Shown: piece by piece, positions 24,886 to 57,016 of the stretch
How positions within the stretch are numbered: the stretch's first letter is position 1
Layout: each line of letters opens with the position of its first letter
NCBI GenBank assembly: GCA_018831195.1
Contig: JAHJDP010000023.1
Span: forward strand, 124,001 to 188,000
From: Candidatus Eisenbacteria bacterium
GTDB taxonomy: Bacteria; Eisenbacteria; RBG-16-71-46; CAIMUX01; JAHJDP01
DNA: 64,000 nucleotides
Direction of reading: 5' to 3'
Notes under the pieces: generated by a model
The model's input: the letters and a program-made list of their open reading frames with translations, nothing else
What the model was told of the DNA's origin: nothing
The model's database searches: none
Translations under genes and position numbers: made by a program

Positions 24886-25065
24886 TCTGATTCAGGGCGC
24901 GCCCCCCATGAGCCGGCCTGAAATCCCATCTTCACATCCCGGTCTTTTTTTCGCATACTTAACAACACCACCGATAACAACAAGCGACCCATTTTTCTTT
25001 AGATCATTGCATTGAAATTCGTAAGCCTTCTTGATCTCCATATTCATGTGTTATTAACTGGACTG

Positions 25066-27039: not shown

Positions 27040-27926
27040 CGCCTTTCCTCCCGAAGCGCGTGGGTCGTTTTCAGATACCACAAAACAAACCCCAGCAAGA
27101 TCAAAAAGATCAAGACGGAAAAGGCGGCGGCATACCCGTATCTGTAATATGTAAAGGCCGCTTTATAGACATAGGTGACGAGAATGTGGGATTTATCCGA
27201 CGGCTGTCCTCCGCGCGTCACGATCCACATGACGTTCAGATTATTGAAAGTCCAGATCGTCCCCAATGAAACCGCTGGAACCATAATCGGCTTCAACATA
27301 GGCAGAGTGACATGGCGGAACCGCCGCCAGGCCGAGGCGCCATCGATGGCCGCCGCCTCATAGAGCTCCGCCGGAATAGACTGCATCGCCCCCAGGGCGA
27401 CAATCATCATAAAGGGAAAGCCGAGCCAGATGTTCGTTATTGTGGCCGCGATAAAAGCCAAAGTCTCGTTCGACAGCCAGGGAACAGGCGGCAAATGGAG
27501 CCATTTTCCAAGCAGCAGATTAATCGAACCATATTGATAATTGAACATTCCCCGCCAGGTCAAAGCCACGATATACTGCGGCATCGCCCAGGGCAGAATC
27601 AGAAGCGCCCGATAAACGCCGCGCCCCTTGATGGATTGATTCAGCAGCATCGCCACGCCGATGCCGATGCCGACATGAAAGAAAACATTTACAAAAGTCC
27701 AGACGGCTGTCTTCGCGAGGACAACATAAAGCTCAGGCTCCAACAATATATTCTTATAGTTCTCAAACCCGACAAGGTGCGCGTCATGAATGTGATAGAG
27801 ACTCATATTGGACAGGGAGAGCCAGAAATTGTACAAAAATGGATAGAGAACGACAATCAGGATGACCAAAAGGGATGGTAGGAGCAAAAGATAGGGGAAG
27901 CGGTGCTTCGATAGTGTCGAGATCAT
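27036..27926 (-). CDS. malF: Sugar ABC transporter permease, MalF type
   Basis: Encodes 296 aa, six helices, short form without the large periplasmic loop of E. coli MalF. The EAA loop reads YEAAAIDGASAWRRFRHVTLPML and the N-terminal motif LLPSLLVILIVVLYPFLYNFWLSLS is typical. The start lies 22 bp after the binding-protein stop and the end overlaps the MalG-type start by four bases. It would form the heterodimeric channel with the MalG-type protein. Confidence 0.88.
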   Translation of the reverse strand: MISTLSKHRFPYLLLLPSLLVILIVVLYPFLYNFWLSLSNMSLYHIHDAHLVGFENYKNILLEPELYVVLAKTAVWTFVNVFFHVGIGIGVAMLLNQSIKGRGVYRALLILPWAMPQYIVALTWRGMFNYQYGSINLLLGKWLHLPPVPWLSNETLAFIAATITNIWLGFPFMMIVALGAMQSIPAELYEAAAIDGASAWRRFRHVTLPMLKPIMVPAVSLGTIWTFNNLNVMWIVTRGGQPSDKSHILVTYVYKAAFTYYRYGYAAAFSVLIFLILLGFVLWYLKTTHALREERR

Positions 27927-27947
27927 TTCACGCCACCCCTATCAGGA

Positions 27948-29180
27948 CTAGCCTTTCATCTCATTGATTTTCGCCACCGCATGTTCCTGCATCTGCCGCG
28001 CGGCTTCGGCCGGTTCCAACGTGCCGTTCCAGACAGATTGCACGGCGGGGCGCATAATGTCCCAAATCGCTCTCATCTCGGTGATGACCGGCATTTTCCG
28101 TCCGACCTCCACCTGGGCCAGTGAGTTTCTCAAGATAGGGTCGTTCTGGATGCGGGTGTCGGCATAGGCCGCCTGGCGCGACGGCAAAGTCCCCAGCTGC
28201 ATTGCGAAATCGATCTGATTTTCCACAGACGTCAAAGAGTTCAAAGCGTCAAGCACCAGGGTGAGCCGATCGCCTTTGACCCGGTTGCCGATCGAATAAC
28301 CTTTGGATGAAACCATCGGCGCAGGCCACCGGCCTGATTTTGCCTCTCGGGGGAGGCGGGCCAATCCAAAATGGATCCCCGCTTTTTTGTAAGCCCCCCA
28401 TGACCAGGGCCCGTTGATGATCATGGCGGCGCGGCCTTCCTTGAACATCGTGTCGGCCAGTTCATAATCGCATTCGGCGGGCATAATTCCGTACCGATAC
28501 CGAAGATCTTTCAGAAATTGGAGCGCCTCCACCATCGCCGGCGAGTCAAGCGTTGGCTTATTGTTCGAATCCATGATCCATCCGCCGAACGCCGTCAGAA
28601 AGGGGATCGCCCAAAAAGGTTCACTGACATTAAAGACCAGTCCATATCGCTCCGGAACTCCGTCGCCATTCTCATCCACCGTCACATTCTTGGCCGTTTC
28701 GATCAGTTCATCCAATGTCATCGGCGCCGCACTTATAAGATCGCTGTTCCATACGAGGATGAGATGGTTGCCGAGTTGATCGGGCACGGCCCAGATATGT
28801 CCATCGAGTGTATCCAGGGCATCCGGCCGGAAGGCGTTGAGCTCTTCGTGCGTCAGCAGCTCATCAATCGGTTGAATCAACTGCATGACAGAGAAGGGTC
28901 CGACTTGATCACTGGGCCCAAAAACGAGATCGGGACCGCCGCCCGCCATTCCCGCCGTTTGAAATTGCGTGCGAAGATCATCGGTGCTGTAATGTGAAAC
29001 TTCGAAGAGAACGCCGGGGTGTTCTTGTTCATAAACCTCAATATGATGGGCGAAAATATCACGCTCCTCGGGATCCATCTGTTCCCAAATCGTGATCGGT
29101 TTCTCCCCTCCACCGCCGCATCCCACCGCCAAAAGAAAGACCAACGGCGGAATCAGAAAGAAAATAGATCGTCTTCTCAT
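27948..29180 (-). CDS. Extracellular sugar-binding lipoprotein of an ABC importer, MalE type
   Basis: Encodes 410 aa. The lipoprotein signal ends in LAVGC (Cys21). The mature part is a cluster-B type 1 binding protein: TIWEQMDPEERDIFAHHIEVYE, SAVGP-like loop SDQVGPFSVMQ, FKEGRAAMIINGPWSWGAYKKAG and QQAAY-type C-terminus. The aromatic GPWSWG segment is a hallmark of maltodextrin and related oligosaccharide binders. Its ATG overlaps the stop of the ATPase gene (ATGA). Lipid anchoring in a diderm places it on the periplasmic side of the inner membrane or in the outer membrane. Confidence 0.9.
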   Translation of the reverse strand: MRRRSIFFLIPPLVFLLAVGCGGGGEKPITIWEQMDPEERDIFAHHIEVYEQEHPGVLFEVSHYSTDDLRTQFQTAGMAGGGPDLVFGPSDQVGPFSVMQLIQPIDELLTHEELNAFRPDALDTLDGHIWAVPDQLGNHLILVWNSDLISAAPMTLDELIETAKNVTVDENGDGVPERYGLVFNVSEPFWAIPFLTAFGGWIMDSNNKPTLDSPAMVEALQFLKDLRYRYGIMPAECDYELADTMFKEGRAAMIINGPWSWGAYKKAGIHFGLARLPREAKSGRWPAPMVSSKGYSIGNRVKGDRLTLVLDALNSLTSVENQIDFAMQLGTLPSRQAAYADTRIQNDPILRNSLAQVEVGRKMPVITEMRAIWDIMRPAVQSVWNGTLEPAEAARQMQEHAVAKINEMKG

Positions 29181-30259
29181 AATGAATCGATCCTCTGCTC
29201 TGTTTCTGTATTGAAAAAGTGCGCCTGTTCAAGGTCGAAGCGAAGATGAATCTCCTCGCCTATCGCGAGGCGGATCGCGCCGGGCGCCTGGGCGACCAAC
29301 GTTAGATTCCCCATCCGGCTGTAGACGTATGATTCGCCGCCGGTCGGCTCGACCAATGTGACCTCCGTCTTGACAGCGCCCGCTGGATCAAGATGAACAT
29401 TTTCAGGCCGCAATCCGAGGTCCACCGCTTTCCCGGAACTGCCGGTCAAAAGCTTGCGCCCGGATTCCGGCAACGGCAGGGAGGTTCCGAAAAGGGCAAT
29501 CCGGGCGGCATCGGCGGAAACATCAGCGCGAAAGAGGTTCATCTGCGGGCTTCCGATAAATCCCGCAACAAAGAGATTTATCGGTTTTTGATAGATCTCC
29601 AGAGGCTCGCCGATCTGCTGGACGATTCCATCTTTGAGGACGACGATTCGCTCCCCCATCGTCATGGCTTCAACCTGATCGTGTGTCACATAGACCGTGG
29701 TGACTTGAAGCCGGCGATGAAGCGAGGAAATTTCCGAACGCATTTCCGTGCGCAGCTTGGCATCCAGGTTTGAAAGGGGCTCGTCAAAGAGAAAGACCTG
29801 TGGGTTTCGAACAATGGCCCGGCCCAAGGCGATCCGCTGCCGCTCCCCGCCCGATAGTTGCTTCGGCATTTTATCCAGAAGCTCAACAACGCCGAGGATT
29901 TGAGCGACATTCCGGACCGTCTTATCAATTTCTTTTTTGGGGATTTTGCGCAGACGAAGACCGAAGGAGATATTTTCATAGGCGGTCATATGCGGATAGA
30001 GAGCATAACTCTGGAAAACCATGGCGACATCGCGGGCCTTTGGCGGGACATCATTGACGATCCGGTCACCGATCCAGACGGTGCCCGCTGTAACCTCCTC
30101 CAGCCCCGCAATGATCCGCAGGACGGTCGACTTGCCGCAGCCGGAGGGACCGACGAGCACGAGGAATTCGTGGTCTTTGATCTCGAGAGAAAGATCGCTA
30201 AGAACCCGCTTCCCCCGGCCATAGACCTTATCGACATTTTCAAGTCTAACGGTTGCCAT
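29177..30259 (-). CDS. malK: Sugar ABC transporter ATP-binding protein, MalK/UgpC/MsmX type
   Basis: Encodes 360 aa. Walker A GPSGCGKST (about 37-45), signature LSGGERQRIALGRA, Walker B VFLFDEPLSNLD and the H-loop YVTHDQVEAM are intact. A C-terminal TOBE/regulatory domain (about 240-360, LGLRPENVHLD) is typical of the CUT1 family. It is the first gene of the operon ATPase, binding protein, MalF type, MalG type, with overlapping junctions. It is transcribed divergently from the FlgD-tailed secreted protein at 30506. Confidence 0.93.
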   Translation of the reverse strand: MATVRLENVDKVYGRGKRVLSDLSLEIKDHEFLVLVGPSGCGKSTVLRIIAGLEEVTAGTVWIGDRIVNDVPPKARDVAMVFQSYALYPHMTAYENISFGLRLRKIPKKEIDKTVRNVAQILGVVELLDKMPKQLSGGERQRIALGRAIVRNPQVFLFDEPLSNLDAKLRTEMRSEISSLHRRLQVTTVYVTHDQVEAMTMGERIVVLKDGIVQQIGEPLEIYQKPINLFVAGFIGSPQMNLFRADVSADAARIALFGTSLPLPESGRKLLTGSSGKAVDLGLRPENVHLDPAGAVKTEVTLVEPTGGESYVYSRMGNLTLVAQAPGAIRLAIGEEIHLRFDLEQAHFFNTETEQRIDSL

Positions 30260-36877: not shown

Positions 36878-37291
36878 CTAATCGACAATCAAGACGGAGT
36901 TGGATCCTCCATATCCATCATCGGTACGCTGAGGATTGTTGGGATCCGTCTTCCAGTTCTGTTCATCGATAATAAATTTGTATTGGTACCGGCCCGCCGG
37001 CAATTTCACAAAAAGCTCCCAGAGCCCGTCGCCGTCAGGATCCTCCATCGCTCCGATTCGAAAACCGCCTGTATCAGCCAATCCCGAACACCAGTTATTG
37101 GTGTCCCAATTGCCGCAAACTTGAACAATCTGAGCGGAAGGACTGTAAAACTGAAACAGAACGCCCTTTTCGGTGATCTGGGGCGGCGGGAGACGCTTTT
37201 TGATAAAACTTAGACCTGTACAACCTGACAACAAGAGGCCCAGGATGATAACCGCCGTAAGAGCCAAGCCTGTTTTTGACAGCTGCCGCAT
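36878..37291 (-). CDS. Lipoprotein with a single CBM48/AMPK-type glycogen-binding domain
   Basis: Encodes 137 aa. The signal peptide ends in LLSGC (Cys24). The rest is essentially one E-set domain: VLFQFYSPSAQIVQVCGNWDTNNW, LWELFVKLPAGRYQYKFIID and GGSNSVLIVD. The VxVCGNWDxNNW and YQYKFIID strands with their Trp and Lys correspond to the ligand-binding residues of starch/glycogen-binding domains. It starts 28 bp after the barrel gene and lies 48 bp before the three-repeat lipoprotein gene. It is likely a small surface or periplasmic starch-binding module. Confidence 0.82.
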   Translation of the reverse strand: MRQLSKTGLALTAVIILGLLLSGCTGLSFIKKRLPPPQITEKGVLFQFYSPSAQIVQVCGNWDTNNWCSGLADTGGFRIGAMEDPDGDGLWELFVKLPAGRYQYKFIIDEQNWKTDPNNPQRTDDGYGGSNSVLIVD

Positions 37292-37319
37292 AAAATCCCT
37301 CTTGCCGCCCCTTCGGGCG

Positions 37320-39557
37320 CTAGAAATTCAGAATGCCCTCGAGCTGAATACGTCGCTCATCTTCCAACGCCTGCTCAGCCCGCTCGATGATACGGCGGAG
37401 TCCCAAGAAATTCGATTCGGCCGTCGCGCCGTTGGCGTTTTGATTGAAGAGATATTGATCCCGCCCGATCTTGTCGTAGCGGTTGGTGACGCCATCGACG
37501 ACATAAGGATCCACGCCGTAACTGAGGGCCAACGTTATCCCATCTGCGGGCTGATAGGCCAATTCAAGGTAGGAGCAATGGTAGGACTCTTTCAATTCCA
37601 AAACCGGATCATCATATTTCGCGATTCGAGTCTCGCAGGAAAGCCGCCAATCCTCATAGATAAATCCTCGAAGCTGCAAAATCGTTTCGAGATACTTGGG
37701 TTTGCCGTCAAAGCCTTCCGCGCTGAAGGTTCCTTCATAAATCAAATCGACCTTGTGGTCCTGCTCGAGATGGAATGTTAAATCGGGGTGCCAGACAAAG
37801 GCGTCCCGGCCGCCGAGCAGCGTCATCCGGTGGTAGGAAACCTGATGTTCGCCGTTCTCCAACCAGAGATTTCTCGTATCAAACCAGAACTGGCTCTCCC
37901 ACGGGGCGTCATCAGCATATGAGAAATTGTGGAATTCAAAGGCGATTTTCGTGTCGGCCGCCAGCCCCAGCAGCGGAAAATGAAATCCGGCGCTGTTGAA
38001 CTCACCGCGCCAGATCGTCACCGAGTTTTCAATGTTATGATGCGGCGGCGTTTCCATCGCCGACATGGCTAGAGCATCAAGGTCATGATCTTGATACTCC
38101 ATCGACAACCGCCATTTGGCGCCGAAGAATCCCTTATCCCACTGCAGTCCGAGCCACATTCTATTTGAGCTGTCCAGGTCGAAATCCCGGCCTCCGACCG
38201 CTGACGTCTCGGTGAAGCGTGAAATCCGGCCTGCCAGCGTGTCCTCTTCAGCGACTGTTTGGAGCACGGCTTTGCTCTTGGAGCCCGAGAAGGTCTCAAT
38301 CCAAGCCGATCCATGAAGATACTCCAGATCAATTATCAGATTCTCAGCCGCATCGAATTGTATATCTCCGCCCATGAATTGCGCCCGCTCAAAAGTGGCG
38401 CCATATTCATAAAGCTCCCCGGTCGTCCGGCTTGCATCGCTCGTGTCGACCTCCATGAAGGCCAGGGAGCCGGGATTAAAACCGCGGTTCAGCCGGTACG
38501 AGACGCCCAGACGGATCCTTCCATCGAACATCCGGTCAAGCCGCCGCTTAACCCGCAGCGCGGCGACATCCATTCCATTGTCGGTATCGTTCATCCGGTA
38601 ATCAAAAACCTTGTCGGTCTTAAATCCAAGCAACCCCCCATCGAGAAAAACGCGGTGTTCCTCCGACCCGAGGGTATTGATTTCAATACCGGGATGATCT
38701 GTTCCGCCCGGTTCCGAGTCATCGGAATAGATAAGCTCAAAATCAAATTTGCGGATCTTTTTCTTCGCTTGCACGCCGACCGCGTTGAACCCGTAAGCAT
38801 GATGATAGATGCCGATATCCCCGATGAGATGGAGGGGATCATCCCAAATCCCGATTTCATCGCCGTCCCAGGCCTTGAGGTAGATGCTGGGATTATTGAC
38901 TATCAGCGATCCGCGATCGAAGTTGAGCCTGGTTTGATAAAAATCCACATTCTCCGATTCATTATTAATGTTGGTAAGGATATAGGCTTCCATATCCTCA
39001 TTGACCCTGACCCTGAAACCGAGATCCATATCGAGTTTCGGGCGGTGCAGCTCATAGCGCGCATCGGGCCCTTTGGATTTTTCCGAGAGATAGAGGGCGA
39101 TGGTCCGCCCCTCGATCCACAGCTTGGGACTCAACGGGGTATTTGATGTCGCCTTCATTGCGATGAGAGCGCCTTCGGATGAGACCGTGATGCCGGAATT
39201 TCCATATTCACCGACCGTGACGGGATTCTCCGGATCGGCCATCCACTGTCCATCCACGACGAACTTGTACTCATGCTGCCCGGGTTCAAGCTCGATGACG
39301 GCGCTCCAAAGATCGCCGTCTTTCCCCATGGGATTCGCCGTCGCCGACCAATTGTTAAAATCACCGGCGAGGGCCACGGACAGGGCCGCGGGAGCGATAT
39401 GGGTAAATCGAATGCCGTCGCCTGTGGATTCCACCGCGGCGTGACCCGGTGCGATCGATAGTGCAAAACTGATCATGAGCAAAATCGTGCGGCCCAAATT
39501 CCCTATTCCAAGACGCCGCCCGGCGCATTCCGTCCGATGGCAAGTTCCTGCTTCCAT
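37320..39557 (-). CDS. Outer-membrane beta-barrel with N-terminal CBM48/AMPK-type glucan-binding domain
   Basis: Encodes 745 aa; the ATG overlaps the upstream TAA (TAATG) and has AAGGGG eight bases before it. A signal peptide ends near GHAAV (about 41). Residues 45-130 are a glycogen-binding domain (IRFTHIAPAALSVALAGDFNNWSA, ELEPGQHEYKFVVDGQW, GNSGITVS). From about 150 to the end the protein consists of alternating amphipathic strands (for example IRLGVSYRLNRGF, NLIIDLEYLHGSA, FTFHLEQDHKVDLIYEG) and ends in an aromatic residue (LNF), as barrels do. It is not a TonB-dependent receptor: there is no plug or TonB box. It may couple starch binding at the membrane to passive or assisted passage of oligosaccharides. 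Function is inferred. Confidence 0.75.
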   Translation of the reverse strand: MEAGTCHRTECAGRRLGIGNLGRTILLMISFALSIAPGHAAVESTGDGIRFTHIAPAALSVALAGDFNNWSATANPMGKDGDLWSAVIELEPGQHEYKFVVDGQWMADPENPVTVGEYGNSGITVSSEGALIAMKATSNTPLSPKLWIEGRTIALYLSEKSKGPDARYELHRPKLDMDLGFRVRVNEDMEAYILTNINNESENVDFYQTRLNFDRGSLIVNNPSIYLKAWDGDEIGIWDDPLHLIGDIGIYHHAYGFNAVGVQAKKKIRKFDFELIYSDDSEPGGTDHPGIEINTLGSEEHRVFLDGGLLGFKTDKVFDYRMNDTDNGMDVAALRVKRRLDRMFDGRIRLGVSYRLNRGFNPGSLAFMEVDTSDASRTTGELYEYGATFERAQFMGGDIQFDAAENLIIDLEYLHGSAWIETFSGSKSKAVLQTVAEEDTLAGRISRFTETSAVGGRDFDLDSSNRMWLGLQWDKGFFGAKWRLSMEYQDHDLDALAMSAMETPPHHNIENSVTIWRGEFNSAGFHFPLLGLAADTKIAFEFHNFSYADDAPWESQFWFDTRNLWLENGEHQVSYHRMTLLGGRDAFVWHPDLTFHLEQDHKVDLIYEGTFSAEGFDGKPKYLETILQLRGFIYEDWRLSCETRIAKYDDPVLELKESYHCSYLELAYQPADGITLALSYGVDPYVVDGVTNRYDKIGRDQYLFNQNANGATAESNFLGLRRIIERAEQALEDERRIQLEGILNF

Positions 39558-41137
39558 TAGAAGTACCCCTTGATGATCAGTTTGACCAAATCCTGATTAT
39601 CCCCGCTCCCCGCCAGATCGTTGTCATCTACGGGATCGGGAGTATCTCCAATCCAATTGGGACCATACTCAAGGAAGATATCCATATTCCCCCGCGGCCT
39701 ATACTGAAGCTGGGTAAACAATCCCTTTCGCAAACGAGCCGGATCATTTCCGAAGGCGTAGCGGCCGTATAGCTTTAACTTATCCGTCAGGTTGACCGAC
39801 GTTTCCAATGACCCCAGTTCCTTCCGGCGGGAAGATCCGAGATTTTTGATCTTTCCCTGGACGCGCATCCAGGCCAGAGAGCTCTCAACCTGAATTTCAG
39901 CGAATAAGTCTTTATTGGTAGTGATATCCGTATATCGCGGATCGCCATAATCCCGAGTCTTTCGATTCGAGTACGACATCTTCGACGTGAAGCCGTTTTC
40001 ATATTCCGTGTAGATCTCGCCATAGAATTCCGTATAATGCTTCTTATCGAACTCGCGGTTTACGGTGCTTGTATAATTCAGCGATAAAGTGACGGCTCTC
40101 TGCGGAATCAAATACCATGTATTGATCCAGACACCCTGCTCGTCTTTCTTTCCATCTCCGAGCGGATTGACAAAACCAGGACCGTAATACCAGAAAGTGG
40201 GTACAATATTGTAATAACCGAGGGCCGGGCTTCCGAAGCGAATGGACCGAATCTCGCCCCGCAACACTGCGTCGGGCGGCAGCCAGTTTTCCATATGTTT
40301 CAAGTTCATGCGCCGCAGATGCCACACACCGTACATGTGCTCGGGCGTGTTTTTAGACTGGGATTCGGCGTATTCGAGCAGAATATCGGTGTTGCGCCAG
40401 GTATAACGCAGATCGCCGGCCATGACGCCCTGGTAGGCGTCGGGATCGGCATCCTGCCCTTCCATCCTCCTGTTGAATGTCAGTCCGGCCCGCAAATCAT
40501 TATTGAAGAACAACCGTCTCAAGCGCGCCACATAGGCGTCGTCGGTGCCGACCGGCGCTCCCGCTTGGGATCCGGCGCCCGGGTTCGACTGCCCGCTATA
40601 GTCACTGGCGATAAATGTGAAATTTGTTCCCTTCAAGCCCCAGATGTCGAATCTCGCGCCCTGGGCGTTGTCTGAATCCTTCAGCTTGTCGGATTGAACA
40701 ACTTGGATAAGATGATTCTCAACCCAGTACCGGTCTTGGCGTTGAAAAAGGTACACATCGCCGCCGTAGCCATCCCGGTCGAGGCGGTAGCGGACATGAC
40801 TCTCCCGGTATTGAAAGACGGGGTTCTCCCATTCATTGGATCCGGGATTCCAATCCGCCTCGAATTTGACAAAAGCCTCGGTATTGGGGAAGGGCGCGGA
40901 GAAGATGCGGAAATTCACGCCGTTCCATGTGTCGCCGTTGTTTGCATCGTAATCCCACGGGAAAGAGCGATACTGTTTGCGGGAGTCGATCATGATTTGG
41001 TACTCGCCTTCAACTTTTGTCAAAGCTAAGACGGCGGGTGCGGCCGTCATAAGAAGCAGGGCCGCCAGCAGGATGATTGCCGGCCCGTTGATCGGCGAAT
41101 TCCCGAATCTCTTATATCGCTTTAATCTTCTCACCAT
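39557..41137 (-). CDS. Outer-membrane beta-barrel protein
   Basis: Encodes 526 aa. A signal peptide (about 17-40, ILLAALLLMTAAPAVLALT) precedes amphipathic strands to the end (FVKFEADWN, HVRYRLDRDGYGGDVYLFQRQDRYW, NTDILLEYAESQSK, VTLSLNYTS), closing with LVKLIIKGYF and its terminal Phe. The 20-24-strand size suggests a solute channel or a substrate-free large barrel; no family name can be given. Start and stop overlap the neighbouring operon genes by 7 and 1 bases. It is probably the partner channel of the glucan-binding barrel. Confidence 0.72.
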   Translation of the reverse strand: MVRRLKRYKRFGNSPINGPAIILLAALLLMTAAPAVLALTKVEGEYQIMIDSRKQYRSFPWDYDANNGDTWNGVNFRIFSAPFPNTEAFVKFEADWNPGSNEWENPVFQYRESHVRYRLDRDGYGGDVYLFQRQDRYWVENHLIQVVQSDKLKDSDNAQGARFDIWGLKGTNFTFIASDYSGQSNPGAGSQAGAPVGTDDAYVARLRRLFFNNDLRAGLTFNRRMEGQDADPDAYQGVMAGDLRYTWRNTDILLEYAESQSKNTPEHMYGVWHLRRMNLKHMENWLPPDAVLRGEIRSIRFGSPALGYYNIVPTFWYYGPGFVNPLGDGKKDEQGVWINTWYLIPQRAVTLSLNYTSTVNREFDKKHYTEFYGEIYTEYENGFTSKMSYSNRKTRDYGDPRYTDITTNKDLFAEIQVESSLAWMRVQGKIKNLGSSRRKELGSLETSVNLTDKLKLYGRYAFGNDPARLRKGLFTQLQYRPRGNMDIFLEYGPNWIGDTPDPVDDNDLAGSGDNQDLVKLIIKGYF

Positions 41138-42036
41138 CGGCTCCCCCCAAAGGGGATGCGCAGGGAGACTTCATAAGAGGCTCCCAACTCGTTGTGCGTT
41201 TCAAAGGCGACATCCACCAGGTAACGTCCCGTTTTCAAACCGGCTCCTCCGGAGAACCGATTTATAGAGAACCCGGTTCTCAGACCGAAAACATCGTAAA
41301 ACCAGACTTCCCCGCCCGCATGCAGCGTCCATTCTCCCGAGGCTTCCCGCGTATACGCGCCGGTAACGGTTGAAGAAGGATTCCAGCGGTAAGCGACACC
41401 GAGATCCTGTGTATGGTAGAGAATGGTTCCGCCGCCCGAACCGGCAAAATTAAAGCGGGGTTCTCCCAGGTTGCGGGCGACATAACTCAAGGAGAGACGG
41501 CGGCCGACACTAAGCAGTGTCCCGATATCCCCGGTAAAATGCACCTCCTGGCCATAATCCTTTTCGAGCTGGGAATCATATCCGACATGCGCGAGCTTTA
41601 AATTTCCACCGACCGAGCAGGCATATCTGCCGCCCGGGGCCAGAAGATCCCTCGCCAGGCCGAGCGTGATCAGATTCTCTCCCATCACGCCGCTGATCCC
41701 CGTGTGATGCCACGAGAGTCCGACTGAGACGTCATTCCGCGGCAGGGCAAAACCCATATAGCTCGATTGAAGGTTGGAGATGGCATAGGGCTTGGCATAC
41801 ATGAGGAGGATGTCACCCCGCTGCAGCGTCACCAATGCCGCGGGATTCCAATACGCCGCGGAGGCGTCATCGACCAGCGCGGAGTAAGCGCCCCCCATGC
41901 CGGTCGCCCGCGCGCCCGCGTGAATCTTCTCAAAATACGCGCCGGCCGGACGGGGCGATAACAATACCGCCGGGAAAACAACCAGGAGAACCGTGAAGCA
42001 GAGCCGCCTTATTCCTATATTTCGTTCCGCCATCAT
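41131..42036 (-). CDS. PorV/UPF0164-like outer-membrane protein
   Basis: Encodes 301 aa from ATG 42036 (a second ATG at 42033 is equivalent), overlapping the upstream stop. A signal peptide ends near PAGAYF. The mature start GARATGMGGAYSALVDDASAAYWNPAAL is the diagnostic FadL-superfamily/PorV opening, followed by short barrel strands and a terminal SLRIPFGGSRW. PorV carries C-terminal-sorted substrates away from the type IX translocon. Here a PorV-like gene sits inside an operon whose first product has a C-terminal FlgD-like tail, suggesting a dedicated shuttle, though a fatty-acid-type channel is the alternative. Confidence 0.8.
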   Translation of the reverse strand: MMAERNIGIRRLCFTVLLVVFPAVLLSPRPAGAYFEKIHAGARATGMGGAYSALVDDASAAYWNPAALVTLQRGDILLMYAKPYAISNLQSSYMGFALPRNDVSVGLSWHHTGISGVMGENLITLGLARDLLAPGGRYACSVGGNLKLAHVGYDSQLEKDYGQEVHFTGDIGTLLSVGRRLSLSYVARNLGEPRFNFAGSGGGTILYHTQDLGVAYRWNPSSTVTGAYTREASGEWTLHAGGEVWFYDVFGLRTGFSINRFSGGAGLKTGRYLVDVAFETHNELGASYEVSLRIPFGGSRW

Positions 42037-43244
42037 CGCACCACCGAAAATGCTTTTTGAACCCGGCTTAATCCAGGCTCCAGGACAACACTGATAATGT
42101 ATATGCCGCCGTGAACATACGAACCGTCTTCGGCCATCCCGTACCAAAGATCCTTTTCTTCATCGTATGGGTCATTCTTTGTGCGCGGATCCCTCTCATA
42201 TAGTGTGATGACTTCATCTCCCGCCATATCGAATATCCGCGCCGTGATCAGGGCATCCGACTGTTCAAAATTGACATGGAACCGCATGGCGATTCCTTCT
42301 TCGGGGGAAGCGATGGGCGAATCGAGAATGAGGTTCTTGAATTTGCACTCGACGCCGCGGACCGGCGGTGTGCGCTTGAATGTGATTCTATCCTTGGGTT
42401 CGATGCCGAAATCGGGAACCGCTTCGATGCTGTCTGTGTCGAGGGGCACGATGGCGTAGTTGTCAATGAGGACCTGATCGGAGCTCTCGTTTGTGTGCCC
42501 GCAGAAATTATCAGGGGCGGAGTCGGGCCCACCGGTTCCATCGGCGCCGGCGGTGACGACCGCGGCGATTTTGAGAACACTCATGCCGTCGGGGATCACC
42601 CAGACATTCGTTCCAAGATCGGGCTGGAACTCCTCCGAGGACAACCCCAAGAAGATCAGCGACCAGGGTATCGCCGCTTCCATCGAGCGGCCCGGTGAAC
42701 TCTGCTGAAACGTCGCCAAGGTGAGGAAAGATGAAGAGGGAACCTCGGTCACATGATTCGGTCCGTCGTACATCATGAGCCGGGGCTGGGAATTGCCATC
42801 CCATGTCGCTAAAAACATCTCCGGCGCAAAATCCTGGGCGAAGACAAAGTTCCTCCGCCATGAATTAAGCTCGGTCATGCCGGTCAGGCCGTTATCGGCC
42901 TCTGTCTCGGGGTCGCGATCCGTGACATCGAGCAGAAGAATAACATTATTGTCAAAGATAAACCCGTCAACGGCGACGTAGAGGTTTTGGGCGTCCCAAG
43001 TGACCTTGATCTGATTAATGTCGTTGAAGGCGCCCCACTTGGAGTCGTTCGTTGATTCTTCGGCCACGAGGAGATCGGGATTGATGCCAAAAACCGACTC
43101 CCCTTCGGTGAACTCTGTCGAGAAACCGTCGATCGACATTCGGGAGGAGAGATTGATCGCCGTTTCGGCATGGGCCCCGCAAGCCGGACAGAGCACTATG
43201 AGTAACAGTATGTACAGGAATCTGTTACGCGATCGTTCCTTCAT
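42033..43244 (-). CDS. Secreted CBM9/DOMON-like protein with FlgD-type C-terminus
   Basis: Encodes 403 aa with a signal peptide (LLLIVLCPACGAHAE, about 1-27). The N-terminal half is a DOMON/CBM9-like beta domain (SRMSIDGFSTEF, DINQIKVTWDAQNLYVAVDG, MEAAIPWSLIFLG), the kind found in glucodextranase and xylanase accessory modules. The C-terminal about 90 residues form a FlgD-Ig-like module (ARIFDMAGDEVITLYE, then GSYVHGGIYIISVVLE). It is the first gene of the six-gene envelope operon and is divergent from the GH13 gene. A surface glucan-binding role is inferred. Confidence 0.72.
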   Translation of the reverse strand: MKERSRNRFLYILLLIVLCPACGAHAETAINLSSRMSIDGFSTEFTEGESVFGINPDLLVAEESTNDSKWGAFNDINQIKVTWDAQNLYVAVDGFIFDNNVILLLDVTDRDPETEADNGLTGMTELNSWRRNFVFAQDFAPEMFLATWDGNSQPRLMMYDGPNHVTEVPSSSFLTLATFQQSSPGRSMEAAIPWSLIFLGLSSEEFQPDLGTNVWVIPDGMSVLKIAAVVTAGADGTGGPDSAPDNFCGHTNESSDQVLIDNYAIVPLDTDSIEAVPDFGIEPKDRITFKRTPPVRGVECKFKNLILDSPIASPEEGIAMRFHVNFEQSDALITARIFDMAGDEVITLYERDPRTKNDPYDEEKDLWYGMAEDGSYVHGGIYIISVVLEPGLSRVQKAFSVVR

Positions 43245-43449: not shown

Positions 43450-46400
43450 ATGGCCGCATCAAGGATATCCCGGCTGAATTCCGGCAACCGGTCTTTATAC
43501 AGTGAATGGAGTGGTTTCTTTTGGCCAGGAAAAATCCTTTGGGGATTTCTTCTGGGAGCGGCCGCGGTCGCCCTTCTTGGATTCGCTATCGGTTCCTCTC
43601 AGGCGGTTGATATAACATTTCATTATCAGCCGGTAAACGCGGGGGCGGATGTCTTTCTCGCCGGAACCTTTAATAATTGGTCTCCGACCGCGAACAAGAT
43701 GACCGACGATAACGGCGACGGTGTCTTTGAATATACAATGGATCTGGCGCCAGGACGGTATGAATACAAATTCGTCGTGAATGGAACCTGGTATGAAGAT
43801 TTGAGCGCCGGTGAGTTTGTCGATGACACCCATGGCGGCCGAAACTCGATACTCAATGTGGGTGAAGACGGTATCATCGCTCCGCCGCAGGTTTCGCCGG
43901 CCGGTACGATAACAACCCCCGCGGGGGCCGATGCCGGCGCCGGACACCCGGTGACCTTTACTTACACACCGATGGTGCCGACGGACAATATCTTTTTGGC
44001 GGGTACTTTCAACAACTGGTCGCCGACGGCGATGCGCATGACCGATGCAGACGGCAATAATGTCTACGAATATACGTTGAATCTCGAGCCCGGCCGGTAT
44101 GAATACAAATTTGTCGTCAACGGCACCTGGTATGAAGACCAGAAGGCCGGTGAGTTTGCCGATGACGGCCTCGGCGGGAAAAACTCGATTCTCAATGTCG
44201 GTGAAGGCGGCGTGATTCCCTCCGCAGGCGGCTCAATGGGCGGCGCCATGGGCGAAGGCTCGAGTGCGCCGGCGCCGGAGGGTGTTTTCCAGGTCGCCTT
44301 CTCGTACACGCCGGATAAAACGCCGCAGAAGGTCTTTATTGCCGGATCGTTCAATGATTGGTCCGCCACATCGAACCCGATGGCGGACCCCGAGGGTGAT
44401 GGCACCTATTCCATTAATCTTGTGTTGCCGGGCGGGACGCACAAATACAAATTCGTCGTCGACGGCGTCTGGCTGCACGACCCCAAGGCCGTCGAACAGG
44501 TCGATGACGGATTCGGCGGCAGGAATTCCGTGATTCACATCGACGAAAGCTTCAAGAAAATCGATCTGAAAAAGGGAGACGGCAAGATCTTCACCGACGG
44601 TATCACGCACTCCTTCTCTCTTTCCGAGCGAAACATGATATCAAACCAAGAAGTCCTCTTCCGTGCGCGCGCTTATACCGGAGACGTCGAATCGGTTTCA
44701 CTCGCCTGGAGAGCCGATGGCGAGTGGACCAGAGTGCCGATGGAGCGCCTGTCGGGAGACACCGCATTTGACTATTATGAAACAATGCTTTCTTCGGATC
44801 AGGATTTGAAGCCCTTTCATTACGCCTTTGTCTATGTTGACGGCAAAACCGAGCTCTGGCTTGGGCCGGATGGCTTTGCCAAGAACGGCTCCTCAATGGC
44901 CGGATTCGCTTTTGATCCGGCGACGGTGGAACGTCTAAGAATACCCTTGTGGGTGCGCGACGGCGTCTTCTATCAGATCTTCCCGGAACGCTTTTACAAT
45001 GGCGACAAGTCAAACGATCCCGATTTCAAGGAATGGTACTATGAGGGGAAAACAAGCCTTCCCCGCGTCGGCCTCTTTGACGGAGAATATTACCATCTCG
45101 TCAAGGACTGGTACGATGTCGGCGGTCTCAAAAAAAGCCCCTACCGCTCCGACGGGAATCCCGATTGGTACTCTTTCTACGGGGGTGATATCGCCGGTGT
45201 TATGGAGAAAATTCCTTATCTCCAGGATTTGGGTATCACCATTATCTATTTCAATCCGGTTTTTCAGGCCCGCTCAAGCCACAAATACGACACGATCGAT
45301 TATATGACGGTCGACCCCCATTTTGCCGATGAGGCTCTCTTTAAGAAATTTGTTCAAAAGGCCCACGCCGCGGGAATCCGCATTATTATCGATGTCGTCT
45401 TCAATCATACCGGCGACGCCCATTGGGCTTTTCAGGATATTGTCAAGAACGGGCCCGAATCAAAATATTGGAACTGGTACGAATGGAAGAAGTGGCCCCT
45501 GCCCGATCCCCGGCCCGCCGATTTCAGAGCGGAGAATTATTACGCCTGCTGGTGGAATTACGGCAGCCTGCCCGATCTGAATTTCGATCTCAGCCTGCCC
45601 AATCCGGATGAAAATTCGGTTGTTGATATAGAGAAGGCGACGCCGAATTGGCCGATGATCAATTACCTGCTCGAGTCGACCCGCTACTGGTTCTCAACAC
45701 TCGATATTGATGGCGTTCGTCTCGATGTACCCAACGAAGCGCCGTTGTGGTTCTGGAAACTCTTCGCCGCCGAAGTCCGCAAGGCGAAGCCCGACTCCTA
45801 TATCATCGCCGAATTATGGGGTGACGCCTCCGGTTGGATCAGCCCCGATATGGTCGACGCCACGATGAACTACCGTTTCTTCAAGGATCCGGTGATGAAA
45901 TGGATCGGCAAGGGCGAGGGTTCCGCCGCCGCATTCGACCGCGAGTTGGCGCCGGGGCGTTCGGTTTATGCCCCCCAATCCCAGCAGATTATGATGAACC
46001 TCATCGACAGCCATGACACGGTTCGTTTTCTCACCGACGCGGGCAAGGATATCCGTCGTCTCATGCTGGCCGCTGTCTTCCAGATGACGTATGTCGGCAC
46101 ACCGCACATCTACTATGGCGACGAGGTCGCGATGGAAGGGAACAAAGATCCCGACTGCCGGCGGCCGTTCTATTGGAAATACGCCGAGGAAGGCCGCCGC
46201 GTTATCCTTCGCGATCATTACCAGAAGCTCATAAAAATCCGGCGTAACCTTCCCGTGCTGCGCCGGGGATCGTTTAGTACAATCCTGGCCGAAGGTCAAA
46301 CCCTCGCCTATCTTCGCAGTGATCCCGACGCTCTGATCCTTGTCGTCTTGAACAATGCCGACAAAATGATCGAGGTGTCGATTCCACTCGGCGGAATCGA

Positions 46401-46524
46401 TCGGATAAAAACGGGCGCGACCTTTGAGAATCTCATGGGAGGCGGCACATTAAAGATGGACGGCTCGATACTCAAGGTCAAAGTTGATCCGATTTCAGGT
46501 ACTATTTTCAAGCTGATGCCCTAA
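43450..46524 (+). CDS. Secreted GH13 alpha-amylase family enzyme with three N-terminal CBM48/AMPK-type domains
   Basis: Encodes 1024 aa; the start has an AGGGGGGGAG site. A membrane-spanning signal (about 20-55) comes first. Three glycogen-binding domains follow (about 58-138, 165-255, 280-365), each with FLAGTFNNWS or FIAGSFNDWS, and YEYKFVVNGTWY or HKYKFVVDGVWL. A CBM34-like linker leads to the GH13 barrel (about 490-930): SHKYDTIDY, IIIDVVFNHTGD (region I), GVRLDVPNEA (nucleophile Asp), IIAELWGDASG (acid/base Glu) and NLIDSHDT (region IV). The motif set resembles the neopullulanase/cyclomaltodextrinase subfamily. It hydrolyses starch or maltodextrins outside the cytoplasm. Secretion route and exact specificity are inferred. 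Confidence 0.92.
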   Translation: MAASRISRLNSGNRSLYSEWSGFFWPGKILWGFLLGAAAVALLGFAIGSSQAVDITFHYQPVNAGADVFLAGTFNNWSPTANKMTDDNGDGVFEYTMDLAPGRYEYKFVVNGTWYEDLSAGEFVDDTHGGRNSILNVGEDGIIAPPQVSPAGTITTPAGADAGAGHPVTFTYTPMVPTDNIFLAGTFNNWSPTAMRMTDADGNNVYEYTLNLEPGRYEYKFVVNGTWYEDQKAGEFADDGLGGKNSILNVGEGGVIPSAGGSMGGAMGEGSSAPAPEGVFQVAFSYTPDKTPQKVFIAGSFNDWSATSNPMADPEGDGTYSINLVLPGGTHKYKFVVDGVWLHDPKAVEQVDDGFGGRNSVIHIDESFKKIDLKKGDGKIFTDGITHSFSLSERNMISNQEVLFRARAYTGDVESVSLAWRADGEWTRVPMERLSGDTAFDYYETMLSSDQDLKPFHYAFVYVDGKTELWLGPDGFAKNGSSMAGFAFDPATVERLRIPLWVRDGVFYQIFPERFYNGDKSNDPDFKEWYYEGKTSLPRVGLFDGEYYHLVKDWYDVGGLKKSPYRSDGNPDWYSFYGGDIAGVMEKIPYLQDLGITIIYFNPVFQARSSHKYDTIDYMTVDPHFADEALFKKFVQKAHAAGIRIIIDVVFNHTGDAHWAFQDIVKNGPESKYWNWYEWKKWPLPDPRPADFRAENYYACWWNYGSLPDLNFDLSLPNPDENSVVDIEKATPNWPMINYLLESTRYWFSTLDIDGVRLDVPNEAPLWFWKLFAAEVRKAKPDSYIIAELWGDASGWISPDMVDATMNYRFFKDPVMKWIGKGEGSAAAFDRELAPGRSVYAPQSQQIMMNLIDSHDTVRFLTDAGKDIRRLMLAAVFQMTYVGTPHIYYGDEVAMEGNKDPDCRRPFYWKYAEEGRRVILRDHYQKLIKIRRNLPVLRRGSFSTILAEGQTLAYLRSDPDALILVVLNNADKMIEVSIPLGGIDRIKTGATFENLMGGGTLKMDGSILKVKVDPISGTIFKLMP

Positions 46525-46529
46525 GCGCC

Positions 46530-48893
46530 GTGAATCGGCTTTTGTTCAAACGATGGCATCAAGCTCGGATGGCGGCGATGGCGGCCCGGTTCGCCTTCGC
46601 CTGGATCCTCATCGGCTTTTTCACCGCCGGCGCCCTGGCCGCTGAGCCGGATATCATCTCCGAATCGAGAACGGAGCTTCAAATGAGTTCATCCATTGAA
46701 TTCAATGTTGATTCTCTGGCCATCGTGGTGACGCGGGATCATCCCCGGGAGTTTATCTATACCGACAAGGGTGCGGCCCACCTCGCCGGTGAAGCGGTGG
46801 GACCCGATACCCGGAGTTATCACGGCTTTTACATTGCGATGCATGAGATCCTGGATGGATGGTCGCTGCGTCTCGAAAACGGCGCCGAGATCGGACCGGA
46901 AACATCGCTCTCGGCGACCGTCTGGCCCGACCGGATCGAGCGCCTGCACCGGCTTCCCGGCGGACAGCTGGTCACCGAGGTGATCACCCTCTTCGACCGC
47001 TCCAACGGTTTTCGCGTGCTCTACCAGAATGTTCCCGCGGGCCGGTTTGAATTGATCCCCCGCGTCGACATGCGTTTTCTTTGGAGTACCGGGCAACCGG
47101 AATACCGGATCGAATGGCGGGACGGATTTCTGCTCATCGCGCGCGAGGATGAAATCGCATCGACCCAGCCGCTGGATCATCCCCCATGGTTGGCGATCGC
47201 CGTCAAGGGCGCCGAAGAATTCCGCGAAAAGGGAACCTATCACAAAACAATTTATCCCAAAGACGCGGCCCGGAGGGCGATGGGCGAGGCCTTCCCCTAC
47301 ATACCCGGCAGGATCACGGGCAGGATTCCCCCGCCGGTCCCGGAGGCCGATATCGAGATCATCTTCGCCGCCGACGTCACGGCCGATGCGGCCGCCGCAA
47401 GCGCCCGGCGCTTGCGGGCCGACGCTGATCGACTGGCTCAAGCGCGCCGGGATCGCCTCACGGACCTCATTCAAAACGCGCGCATTCAAACCGGCGTCGA
47501 GAAAGACGACCATGCTTTGGCTTGGGCGCGGATCTCCCTCGACAACCTGATCATGAATCAGCGCGGCGCCGGAATTTATGCCGGCTTTTACTGGTTCACA
47601 ACCTATTGGGGACGGGATACCTTTATTGTTCTCCCCGGCGCTTGTATAACCAATGGCGATTTCAGTACCGCCGAAACAGTGCTGCGATCCTTCGCCACAT
47701 TCCAAGCGACCGATCCCAACAACCCACACGAGGGACGCCTGCCCAACTTTGTCACGGTCGAGCAGGTTCAGTTTGCGGGGATCGACGGCACCTGGTGGTT
47801 TGTTCGCGCCCTCGACGAACTTTGGCGCCGATCAGGCTGGGATGATTTTGCGCGCGAGATGACGCCCGTCGTTCTCCGCGCCGTCGAGGGGGCGTTGCGC
47901 CATGCCGTCGATGAGCATGGTTTCCTACAACACGGCGACGGCGAAACATGGATGGACGCCGGCGGCGAAGCCCATCCCTACTCACCGCGGGGGAACCGGG
48001 CCATAGAAGTGCAGGCGCTCTTTCACCGCGGTCTCCTTACAGCTTCGCGATTGGCCGCACGCTTCTCCGACGATGCCGAACTGTCTTCCCGCTATCAACA
48101 TCGCGCGGATCAACTCGCAGCGAACTTCCATCAGTATTTCACGGCGGATGATCATTTCACCGACCATCTGAATCCCGACGGCTCGCAGGATACTCAAATC
48201 CGTCCCAATGCCTTGTTGGCGGTGATGGCGTCACCGACATTGTTCAGCGATGATCAACGCCGGATGATCACACGGCGCGCGGCGGAATATCTCGTGAAAC
48301 CCTGGGGGATCCTTTCGTTGAATGAAGAGGATCCCGCTTTTCATCCAAAACATCTCGATCTTGCGAACTACTATTACGATGAAGCCTATCACAATGGCGA
48401 CATTTGGCTTTGGCTGTCGGGCCCGTATGTCTCGGCCGGCGCCGATCCCCGTGCGGCCTTCGGCCAGACGCGGATGCTTCTCGACGAGATTATGGATGAG
48501 GGCGCCGTGGGAACACTCCAAGAGATCCGCGATGGCGCCCGTGCGAGCTCCAATGATGAGTTCGGCGGCGCCACCAGCCAGGCCTGGTCGCTTTCAGAGT
48601 TGTTGCGAACCATCGCCGACGATTACATGGGCCTCTCCGTCGATCTCACGCAGGATCCGCCGCATGTCAGCGTGATGCCCAATCTCCCCGATGAATGGCC
48701 CGGCTTATCGATGAGAACACGCATCGGGGTTCATGATGTGCTCGTTGAGTGCCGCCGGGGATCCGACGGTGATGCCGACGAGGTCACTCTGACTTTCGAC
48801 CACCTGCTTCCGGAGGATTGGAAGATCGAGATGAAAGGCGGCGGGAAAATGATGATCAAATCCGCCAAACAAGCGCCTTCGCAAGAAAAATAG
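46530..48893 (+). CDS. Secreted GH133-type glycogen debranching enzyme (amylo-alpha-1,6-glucosidase)
   Basis: Encodes 787 aa from GTG 46530, five bases after the amylase stop; the ribosome site is weak, so coupling is likely (ATG at 46569 is an alternative). A signal peptide is evident (FAFAWILIGFFTAGALAAEP). The N-terminal beta domain (GDE_N type, about 50-300) precedes an (alpha/alpha)6 barrel with YWFTTYWGRDTFIVLPG, DGETWMDAGGE, IRPNALLAVMAS and DEGAVGTLQEIRDG, the GH133 signature set. It removes alpha-1,6 branches. Most family members are cytoplasmic; the signal peptide makes this one periplasmic or extracellular, acting with the GH13 enzyme encoded just upstream. Confidence 0.88.
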   Translation: MNRLLFKRWHQARMAAMAARFAFAWILIGFFTAGALAAEPDIISESRTELQMSSSIEFNVDSLAIVVTRDHPREFIYTDKGAAHLAGEAVGPDTRSYHGFYIAMHEILDGWSLRLENGAEIGPETSLSATVWPDRIERLHRLPGGQLVTEVITLFDRSNGFRVLYQNVPAGRFELIPRVDMRFLWSTGQPEYRIEWRDGFLLIAREDEIASTQPLDHPPWLAIAVKGAEEFREKGTYHKTIYPKDAARRAMGEAFPYIPGRITGRIPPPVPEADIEIIFAADVTADAAAASARRLRADADRLAQARRDRLTDLIQNARIQTGVEKDDHALAWARISLDNLIMNQRGAGIYAGFYWFTTYWGRDTFIVLPGACITNGDFSTAETVLRSFATFQATDPNNPHEGRLPNFVTVEQVQFAGIDGTWWFVRALDELWRRSGWDDFAREMTPVVLRAVEGALRHAVDEHGFLQHGDGETWMDAGGEAHPYSPRGNRAIEVQALFHRGLLTASRLAARFSDDAELSSRYQHRADQLAANFHQYFTADDHFTDHLNPDGSQDTQIRPNALLAVMASPTLFSDDQRRMITRRAAEYLVKPWGILSLNEEDPAFHPKHLDLANYYYDEAYHNGDIWLWLSGPYVSAGADPRAAFGQTRMLLDEIMDEGAVGTLQEIRDGARASSNDEFGGATSQAWSLSELLRTIADDYMGLSVDLTQDPPHVSVMPNLPDEWPGLSMRTRIGVHDVLVECRRGSDGDADEVTLTFDHLLPEDWKIEMKGGGKMMIKSAKQAPSQEK

Positions 48894-55173: not shown

Positions 55174-55497
55174 TCATTTGCCTCTCCTTTTTGTTGTTTT
55201 ACTGGATTCCTGCGTCCAGGGTGCGTCGATAATGGACTGGCGCAGCAGTTTGGCAATTTGCCGTTGGAGTTTACGATAATTTCTGATTCGCTTTTTGCAT
55301 TCCATAGCCGTCTGTCTGCTGATTGTCTTTGTCGTTCTTTTGCCGTCAATAAGGCCGGTCCATCGGTAATAGATACCGTGAAGGCGGGGCGGATCGCCTT
55401 TGCACGCACAATTAGGTTTTCCACACTGACTATGAGCTGTTGAAACACTCCCGGGTAATACTGGTCCATCCAGATCAAAGCGGATGTATTCTTGCAT
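55174..55497 (-). CDS. DUF6788-like Cys-motif protein carried by the IS
   Basis: Encodes 107 aa from ATG 55497, preceded by AGGAGGGGG. The features are CGKPNCACKGDPPRLHG (a C-x4-C-x-C metal-like motif followed by HG), YYRWTGLIDGKRTTKTI and a basic helix ending in NYRKLQRQIAKLL. This is how I recall the small DUF6788 proteins often found near transposable elements. It is divergent from the transposase and lies wholly inside the inverted repeats, so it moves with the element. It may bind nucleic acid and regulate or assist transposition; this is inference. Confidence 0.7.
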   Translation of the reverse strand: MQEYIRFDLDGPVLPGSVSTAHSQCGKPNCACKGDPPRLHGIYYRWTGLIDGKRTTKTISRQTAMECKKRIRNYRKLQRQIAKLLRQSIIDAPWTQESSKTTKRRGK

Positions 55498-55576
55498 AAT
55501 CCCCCTCCTGATGTATATCTACATTAGGACTATCGATAAGTCCAGCGACTTTTTGCTTATATACGGAGGTGAAACA

Positions 55577-57016
55577 ATGATCCGTCATGTCAATAAAAAT
55601 GACCAAGTGAACTCGTGGATTAACAAAGAGTTGGCAGGGTGCCGATTTGCTGATGTTCGTTTGGAGAAGAGATTCAAGGCTCTCGTGAACCACATGTCGG
55701 AGAGTTTTGGCGAAAGCATTCCAATGGCCTGCCAGGATTGGGCGGCCACAAAGGCTGCATACCGATTTTTCTCAAATGAGCGTGTGAGTGAGGCAGAAAT
55801 TCTTTCCGGACATTTTCAGGCCACCCGTGACCGGTTTCGTGCAACCCAAGGAGTCGCACTTGTGCTTCATGACACGACTGAATTTTCATTTCAGAGGAAA
55901 AACAAGAAGGCTATTGGAGTCGTGCGTAAGACACGCGGTGGACAACGAAAGGAATATATGCCAAAAGCCAAGACAGTTTGCGGAATGCTTTTGCATTCCA
56001 GCCTCGTAATTACTACCGAAGGGCTCCCCCTCGGTATCTCAGCTGTGAAATTTTGGACCCGAAAAAGATTTAAGGGATGCAACGCTCTCAAGAAGAAAAT
56101 CAATCCGACACGAGTCCCAATCGAGAAGAAAGAAAGCATGCGGTGGATCGAGAACATCAAGGCATCCACGACCTTGATGAATGAGCCTGACAGATGTGTT
56201 CATATCGGTGATCGAGAAAGCGACATCTATGAGCTCTTTTGTACTGCGCAAAACATCGGGACGCATTTCCTCGTGCGGACCTGTGTTAACCGGTTGGCTG
56301 GGGATGGCAAACATACGATTGCGGACGAAATGAAGAAAGTCCGTGTCAAAGGAACTCATCGCATCGAAGTGCAAGACAGGAAAGGAAATAGATCAAAAGC
56401 CATTCTGGATATCCGTTATCGCCGAATCCAAGTACTGCCCCCGATTGGCAAACAAAATAGATATCCGGAAATTAAACTCACCGTTCTATACGCCCAGGAG
56501 CGCGGAACACCGAAGGATCGCGAGAAGATCAACTGGAAGCTGATTACGGATTTACCGGTGACTTCCCAAGCTGAGGCAATTGAAAAATTGCAGTGGTACG
56601 CTTCGCGCTGGAAAATTGAAACCTTCCACAAAATTCTCAAGTCAGGGTGCAAAGCTGAAGATTCAAAACTTAGAACCGCTGAACGCCTGTGTCGACTGAT
56701 TGCGGTATTCTGTCTCCTAAGCTGGCGCATCTTCTGGATGACGATGATCAATAGAACGGCTGCTACATTGCCTGCAAGCGTCGTCTTTACCACTTCAGAG
56801 TGTCAACTCCTCGACCTTCTGGTGCGAGATTGTAAACGCCACGGCATGACGAAAGCGACATTGTCAGACTACATTACAAAAGTTGCAAAACTTGGCGGCT
56901 ACCTTGCCCGAGCTAATGATCCGCCGCCTGGGAATCTCGTCATGTGGCGCGGCCTGTCACGTTTCACAGACATTCAGCTCGGGTTCGATATTCAGATGGG
57001 AAATACTTGTGGGTAA
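55577..57016 (+). CDS. IS4 family transposase, IS50/Tn5 group
   Basis: Encodes 479 aa from ATG 55577 with GGAGGT nine bases upstream. The N-terminal Tn5-type DNA-binding domain (WINKELAGCRFADVRLEKRF, MACQDWAATKAAYRFFSNERV) is followed by the RNase H-like catalytic core: LHDTTEFSF (first Asp), GDRESDIYELF (second Asp) and YASRWKIETFHKILKSGCKAE with the YREK-type Tyr-Arg-Glu-Lys (Glu third). A Tn5 dimerisation-like C-terminus (AERLCRLIAVFCLLSWRIFWM) completes it. Length and all catalytic residues are intact, so it should be functional for cut-and-paste transposition. It ends within the right inverted repeat. Confidence 0.95.
   Translation: MIRHVNKNDQVNSWINKELAGCRFADVRLEKRFKALVNHMSESFGESIPMACQDWAATKAAYRFFSNERVSEAEILSGHFQATRDRFRATQGVALVLHDTTEFSFQRKNKKAIGVVRKTRGGQRKEYMPKAKTVCGMLLHSSLVITTEGLPLGISAVKFWTRKRFKGCNALKKKINPTRVPIEKKESMRWIENIKASTTLMNEPDRCVHIGDRESDIYELFCTAQNIGTHFLVRTCVNRLAGDGKHTIADEMKKVRVKGTHRIEVQDRKGNRSKAILDIRYRRIQVLPPIGKQNRYPEIKLTVLYAQERGTPKDREKINWKLITDLPVTSQAEAIEKLQWYASRWKIETFHKILKSGCKAEDSKLRTAERLCRLIAVFCLLSWRIFWMTMINRTAATLPASVVFTTSECQLLDLLVRDCKRHGMTKATLSDYITKVAKLGGYLARANDPPPGNLVMWRGLSRFTDIQLGFDIQMGNTCG

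Follow-up and report, generated by a model that had tools for sequence, protein, structure and literature searches.

Does this locus encode a debranching enzyme of family GH133 that works outside the cytoplasm? The question is posed by a reading frame at positions 46530 to 48893 (+) of the 64,000-nucleotide stretch of Candidatus Eisenbacteria DNA analysed here (the window). In the parts of the literature available to us, GH133 is either tied to glycogen inside the cell or listed among starch CAZymes with no location given (PMC11046441, PMC4837477, PMC13236585, PMC11093988, PMC9458734, PMC11784079, PMC9386147, PMC10344455, PMC4236520, PMC5712168), and the same parts hold no description of an exported member, which does not prove that none has been published. 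The frame starts with GTG at 46530, ends with TAG at 48893 and comprises 787 codons. A preliminary description had placed it five bases behind a gene for an exported GH13 enzyme, and this is the arrangement found, with the GH13 stop at 46524 and a gap from 46525 to 46529. The product had also been taken for a GH133-type enzyme with a signal peptide, a view on which the reading frame, a GDE_C match (2.4e-60), the N-terminus and conservation in the clade of related genes agree. These features, like the candidate catalytic residues, the predicted fold and the gene context, are legible in the sequence itself.

The N-terminus, VNRLLFKRWHQARMAAMAARFAFAWILIGFFTAGALA followed by AE, has a charged (basic) n-region, an uncharged hydrophobic core and an AxA site, and residues 1-37 (46530 to 46640, +) are predicted by a simple rule, with counterparts in relatives, to form a Sec signal peptide cleaved at ALA/AE. 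The rule asks for a positive n-region, an uncharged core with a mean hydropathy of at least 1.9, and either AxA or a lipobox. The start codon is uncertain and may be GTG 46530, ATG 46569 or ATG 46578; the hydrophobic core is kept in all three cases, and the rule is passed from GTG 46530 and from ATG 46569. It is not strict when taken alone, since 107 of 2000 sequences made by shuffling residues 2-52 passed as well, and the weight of the argument therefore rests on conservation within the clade. The rule also missed the window's own GH13, whose hydrophobic core begins late, and one related gene (L027), both of which we read as failures of the rule; L027 was kept as a miss in all counts. Given the passing shuffles and the missed GH13, it is used here solely as a comparative measure.

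Relatives were sought in 84,980 species genomes, and 14 loci at 56-66% identity were found, in groups that include Candidatus Eisenbacteria, Krumholzibacteriia/-ota and Latescibacterota. The N-terminus is present in 13 of the 14. Counting the query and two additional genomes, this clade has 16 scoreable members, of which 15 passed the signal rule (the exception is L027). It was also passed by seven of eight scoreable relatives at 40-43% identity (L106 failed), and by none of the 19 scoreable relatives at about 30% identity. Unscored were L038, L113 and L115, which have no N-terminus, and L013, L100, L109 and L110, which have no anchor motif; by eye, the starts of L100 and L110 look signal-like and that of L109 is ambiguous. 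In a maximum-likelihood tree of 44 rows, a branch with 100/100 support parts 23 rows, made up of the 60% and 40% groups, from 21 distant rows. Fragments (L019, L035, L037-L039, L112, L113, L116) and duplicates (L087-L093, L095-L098, and L101 and L108) were left out of this alignment and tree.

Could the protein nonetheless be made without its signal? An internal ATG at codon 52 (46683 to 46685, +) is the sole candidate start that deletes the hydrophobic core, and translation from it would give an enzyme of the cytoplasm, there to debranch glycogen reserves or branched dextrin after import. It is preceded, six bases 5', by GGAG, a better ribosome site than any before 46530, 46569 or 46578, where none is clear, and a fair point in favour of this start; every catalytic part of the protein lies downstream of codon 52; and the gene is the sole GDE_C gene of a genome that also holds GT5 and GT35 genes. 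The near-uniform presence of signals in the scoreable clade members, some of them lipoprotein-like, argues against this start, however, as does the fact that the in-frame internal starts of the relatives share no common place. The third-position GC content of codons 1-51 (0.73) is likewise similar to that of the remainder (0.68). We therefore consider the cytoplasmic start, which the preliminary description had named as its own refutation, very improbable, and the protein very probably exported.

Export appears to be a property of the subfamily that is usual and not universal. Eleven wider subfamily members outside the window's phylum were judged by eye: a signal is present in five (L120-L123, L125), absent from four (L117-L119, L124) and ambiguous in two (L126, L127). 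A tree of the wider subfamily requires three changes of signal label; in it, all 11 rows of the 40% group were labelled signal-bearing, though L106 and L109 lacked support, eight distant rows were thinned out, L117-L125 were labelled by eye and L126 and L127 stayed unlabelled.

The host genome (5.24 Mb in 123 contigs, 99% complete) has no second GDE_C gene by profile search. It contains a second GH13 gene on another contig, a phosphorylase (GT35) and a GT5 synthase, so enzymes of intracellular glycogen metabolism exist there apart from the GH133 gene. In the 13 genomes of loci L027-L039, too, there is no clear GDE_C gene besides the exported one: in G069 and G071 a fragment on a second contig covers the part missing from the first GDE_C fragment, and weaker second matches were found in G063 (24.3 bits, cut-off 21) and, under the cut-off, in G061.

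We then asked to which family the protein belongs. GDE_C (PF06202) is the single Pfam domain of the chain; it spans residues 343-693 (47556 to 48608, +), scores 204.8 bits against a cut-off of 21 and covers profile positions 12-367 of 367, and Pfam detected no N-terminal GH13-type transferase domain in the 787 residues. As the GDE_C model also matches in E. coli, it may be broader than GH133. Among solved structures, sequence profiles matched human GDE (4.6e-16), fungal GDE (about 5e-15) and the Thermococcus gammatolerans amylo-alpha-1,6-glucosidase 7vma (0.0057), followed by one allergen at chance level (0.049). The NCBIfam model for archaeal-type GDE, TIGR01561, gave 125.8, below its curated cut-off of 364.15, and matched over profile positions 256-567 only.

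An AlphaFold2 model built with 14 sequences (mean pLDDT 73.7, pTM 0.78, with values below 50 in the catalytic loops 342-363, 470-486, 592-629 and 659-682) predicts an N-terminal beta-sandwich domain at about residues 57-300 (46698 to 47429, +), which enters the VIA alignment with 7vma from residue 73, and an (alpha/alpha)6 catalytic domain that coincides with GDE_C. The model thus has the supersandwich and (alpha/alpha)6 fold, one that is common to GH65, GH94 and other families. VIA aligned 528 residues with 7vma (Z 27.1, rmsd 3.5); human PGGHG reached Z 27.7 and a GH65 alpha-1,2-glucosidase 26.6, and scores this close mean that fold alone does not decide the family. In Foldseek the first rows were GH94/GH65 enzymes, with 7vma at rank 34 (6.1e-12); naming the family after the top GH94 phosphorylases was dropped in view of the close VIA scores. 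Despite these fold matches, the Pfam profiles of GH65 and GH94 found no match in the protein at E 1e-3; GH100 and GH15 were compared by Pfam scan only. The protein resembles the Thermococcus enzyme in combining a sandwich with an (alpha/alpha)6 domain and in lacking a transferase domain. It differs from it by its signal peptide, by an identity of only 14% in the structural alignment and by its sub-threshold TIGR01561 score.

In the available part of the work on Candida glabrata GDE (CgGDE), the catalytic pair is D1241 and E1492, D1078 is a pocket residue, the main-chain contacts include R1123, N1125 and Y1407, and the pocket accepts a single-glucose branch (PMC4837477). By alignment, D363 (in WGRD, 47616 to 47618, +) corresponds to D1078 of the glucosyl pocket and D476 (in TWMD, 47955 to 47957, +) to D1241. 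For E1492 we propose E665 (in EIRDG, 48522 to 48524, +), which was mapped through bacterial relatives, the profile alignment to human GDE being shifted at this position. All three residues are conserved throughout the clade (23 of 23 rows), and the protein is probably an inverting alpha-glucosidase.

The main-chain contacts have changed. R1123 is replaced by Q414 and Y1407 by H608 in all 23 rows, and N1125 by A416 in 21 of them. W422 and N622 are likewise invariant in the clade, their counterparts in the distant rows being L and Q (21/21), and the motifs DGTWW and YHNG occur in every clade row. The position of R1123 also differs in the bacterial relatives at about 30% identity, with E in 15 of 21, and loss of the CgGDE residues does not, therefore, exclude GH133 membership. 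The signal-less members L117-L119 also have YHNG and DGT[WL]W, so that the altered cleft belongs to the subfamily and not to export itself. With three contact residues replaced, a specificity identical to that of fungal GDE cannot be assumed; the acceptor is perhaps not simply a glycogen chain bound as in the fungal enzyme, and specificity may differ. The protein shares with CgGDE and the GC domain of human AGL the equivalents of D1078, D1241 and E1492, which are conserved in its clade, and departs from both in having no GT domain, in the replaced contacts and in its predicted export. The cytosolic-type GH133 proteins of the same phylum (for example L005 and L011) have the domain and the catalytic residues in common with it; they differ in that they reach only about 30% identity and have an EWLxTNGxGG N-terminus, no signal and other cleft motifs.

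Such a cleft could also serve an exported alpha-glucosidase of the same fold with another linkage or acceptor preference, exo-acting on isomalto-, kojibiose- or other alpha-glucosides. The contacts fixed in the clade (Q414 and H608, and mostly A416) and the invariant DGTWW and YHNG motifs are compatible with this, and GH65 kojibiose and alpha-1,2-glucosidase enzymes are among the top fold matches, some with Z values tied with 7vma. We nevertheless hold it to be unlikely, if worth keeping in mind: at the thresholds used, profile searches link the sequence to GH133 and to none of those families, and genes for alpha-1,4/1,6-glucan enzymes adjoin in several loci.

Here, as in several relatives, the genes around the frame give an alpha-glucan context. 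The gene at 43450 to 46524 (+) encodes a predicted secreted neopullulanase-type GH13 of 1024 amino acids with three CBM48/AMPK-type modules, assigned by Pfam and catalytic motifs. It has a hydrophobic N-terminal stretch and intact GH13 motifs, and its nearest match with a solved structure is neopullulanase/alpha-amylase II. Neopullulanases degrade pullulan to panose. A GH133 pocket for one glucose would be suited to the alpha-1,6-linked glucose that a neopullulanase leaves. An ABC sugar importer of MalEFGK type (26197 to 30259, -), with two permeases, a binding lipoprotein and an ATPase, is also encoded in the window, more than 16 kb from the GH133 frame. The 3' end of a gene for a ROK-family regulator (25012 to 26217, +) overlaps the 3' end of this oppositely oriented cluster.

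From these data we infer a compartment, a substrate, a division of labour and a coupling to the importer. The GH133 protein would be an exported, single-activity amylo-alpha-1,6-glucosidase, secreted by the Sec route and acting in the periplasm with the adjacent GH13. The CBM48-bearing GH13 would cut alpha-1,4 bonds of a branched alpha-glucan, yielding panose-like oligosaccharides or dextrins with alpha-1,6 stubs of a single glucose, and would so supply the trimming step performed by the transferase domain in fungal and animal GDE. The GH133 enzyme would take off the stubs by inverting hydrolysis with D476 and E665, and the MalEFGK importer would then take up linear maltodextrin and glucose. 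Taken as a whole, this division of labour between GH133 and GH13 ahead of uptake is the reading we favour, with some reserve. Of the extracytoplasmic starch debranching claimed in the preliminary description, export, alpha-glucan context and GH133 chemistry (through the catalytic residues) find support here, and starch debranching and the substrate itself stand as proposals.

Where the enzyme would act was left between imported and surface-bound starch. The Pfam scan found no T9SS- or FlgD-type tail on either the GH133 or the GH13 protein, which makes the periplasm the likelier place. Alternatively, the enzyme might be anchored or released at the outer surface and act on surface-bound starch together with CBM48 proteins of a divergent gene cluster (36878 to 43244, -). 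Lipoprotein signals do occur in some relatives (L026, L104 and L111 by the rule, L122 by eye) and the cluster does encode CBM48 proteins with export signals, but the query has neither a lipobox nor a FlgD/T9SS-type tail, unlike other proteins of the window, and a surface location seems rather improbable to us.

In the divergent cluster, all on the minus strand and taken here by rising coordinate, a small lipoprotein-like CBM48 protein of 137 amino acids with the motif LLSGC (36878 to 37291) is followed by a protein with a signal-like N-terminus by the rule, a CBM48 by Pfam and then about 620 residues of unknown fold (37320 to 39557). Next come a protein with a signal-like N-terminus that is possibly an outer-membrane barrel and has no Pfam match (39557 to 41137), a possible outer-membrane protein with weak FadL/UPF0164/PorV resemblance (41131 to 42147; E 0.003 to 0.25, below the cut-offs) and a protein without an assigned family (42033 to 43244), again with a signal-like N-terminus, that is kept in the cluster. 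The last three had no Pfam match at E 1e-3; relaxing the threshold to E 5 left two without a match and gave the third weak outer-membrane matches only. A single-sequence structure prediction of the protein at 37320 to 39557 was uninformative (mean pLDDT 31.5). Some match to it was found in 26 of 47 genomes of the phylum, many through CBM48 alone, and full-length matches at 35-100% identity in seven, the query included. The cluster may serve to capture alpha-glucan, in a kind of system that does without SusCD.

One of the nearest known systems is the Sus system of Bacteroides, in which the periplasmic pair is SusA, a GH13 neopullulanase, and SusB, an alpha-glucosidase. In both cases an exported neopullulanase-type GH13 accompanies an exported exo-alpha-glucosidase, with CBM-bearing exported proteins nearby, as predicted here. 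In our locus, by contrast, the exo-enzyme is of GH133 type, no SusC or SusD was recognised among the window ORFs scanned, and a MalEFGK importer is present in the window. As a tentative extension, for which the odds are somewhat against us, GH133-like enzymes outside the cytoplasm, a subfamily with an acceptor cleft of its own (Q414, A416, DGTWW, H608, YHNG), would belong to a starch-uptake system of uncultured phyla. In it, CBM48 lipoproteins and CBM48-bearing membrane proteins would replace SusCD, and debranching, in the animal cytosol the task of a single bifunctional enzyme, would be divided between a neopullulanase in the periplasm and the exported alpha-1,6-glucosidase.

The gene context in relatives bears on the proposed pairing. 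The gene order of the divergent cluster, headed by the GH13 gene and closed by a CarboxypepD_reg gene, is kept in G003 and G002; beside a CBM48-rich GH13, its conservation spans two other families of the taxonomic order, as loci L146 and L147 show. At the low-coordinate end of L146 and L147, tandem CarboxypepD_reg-like paralogues lie past the CBM48 lipoprotein gene. In G003 the GDE gene is away from the GH13 cluster, adjoining a frame that by eye resembles an M42 peptidase, and in G002 the GH13 cluster is present and the GDE gene absent; the pairing of GH13 and GDE is thus not obligatory. A malK gene adjoins the GDE gene in four of the 14 related loci (L029, L032, L036, L038), with two GH13 genes across malK from GDE in L029 and L036 and GH57 genes following malK/GDE in L032 and L038. 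Ten of the 14 have neither malK nor a full-length GH13 in the stretch examined, several stretches being short, and in the other related loci no full alpha-glucan gene was found among that part of the frames which was examined, several contigs being short. At L032 (8736 to 18910), the exported GDE is accompanied by malK, two GH57 genes, a GT5 (GlgA-type) synthase and a GlgC-like protein, so an exported GDE can also occupy a glycogen-type cluster.

What is new here is a GH133 subfamily with predicted export signals in little-known phyla, partly in alpha-glucan loci. A full-length member was found in two of the 47 genomes of the window's phylum (G000, the host genome, and G003), and in the phylum of G061, taken to be Krumholzibacteriota, the best match reached at least 300 bits in 27 of 80 genomes. 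Among 385 sampled genomes, 11 that lie outside the window's phylum had a match of at least 250 bits. With such a subfamily, if well supported, GH133 counts from uncultured phyla could not be taken as a measure of the capacity to store glycogen. Further, the proposed sharing of debranching by two exported enzymes is testable, and the acceptor-site residues are marked as targets for a comparison of specificity. Farther along the window, the frame at 55484 to 57016 (+) resembles what we take to be a transposase of IS4/Tn5 type.
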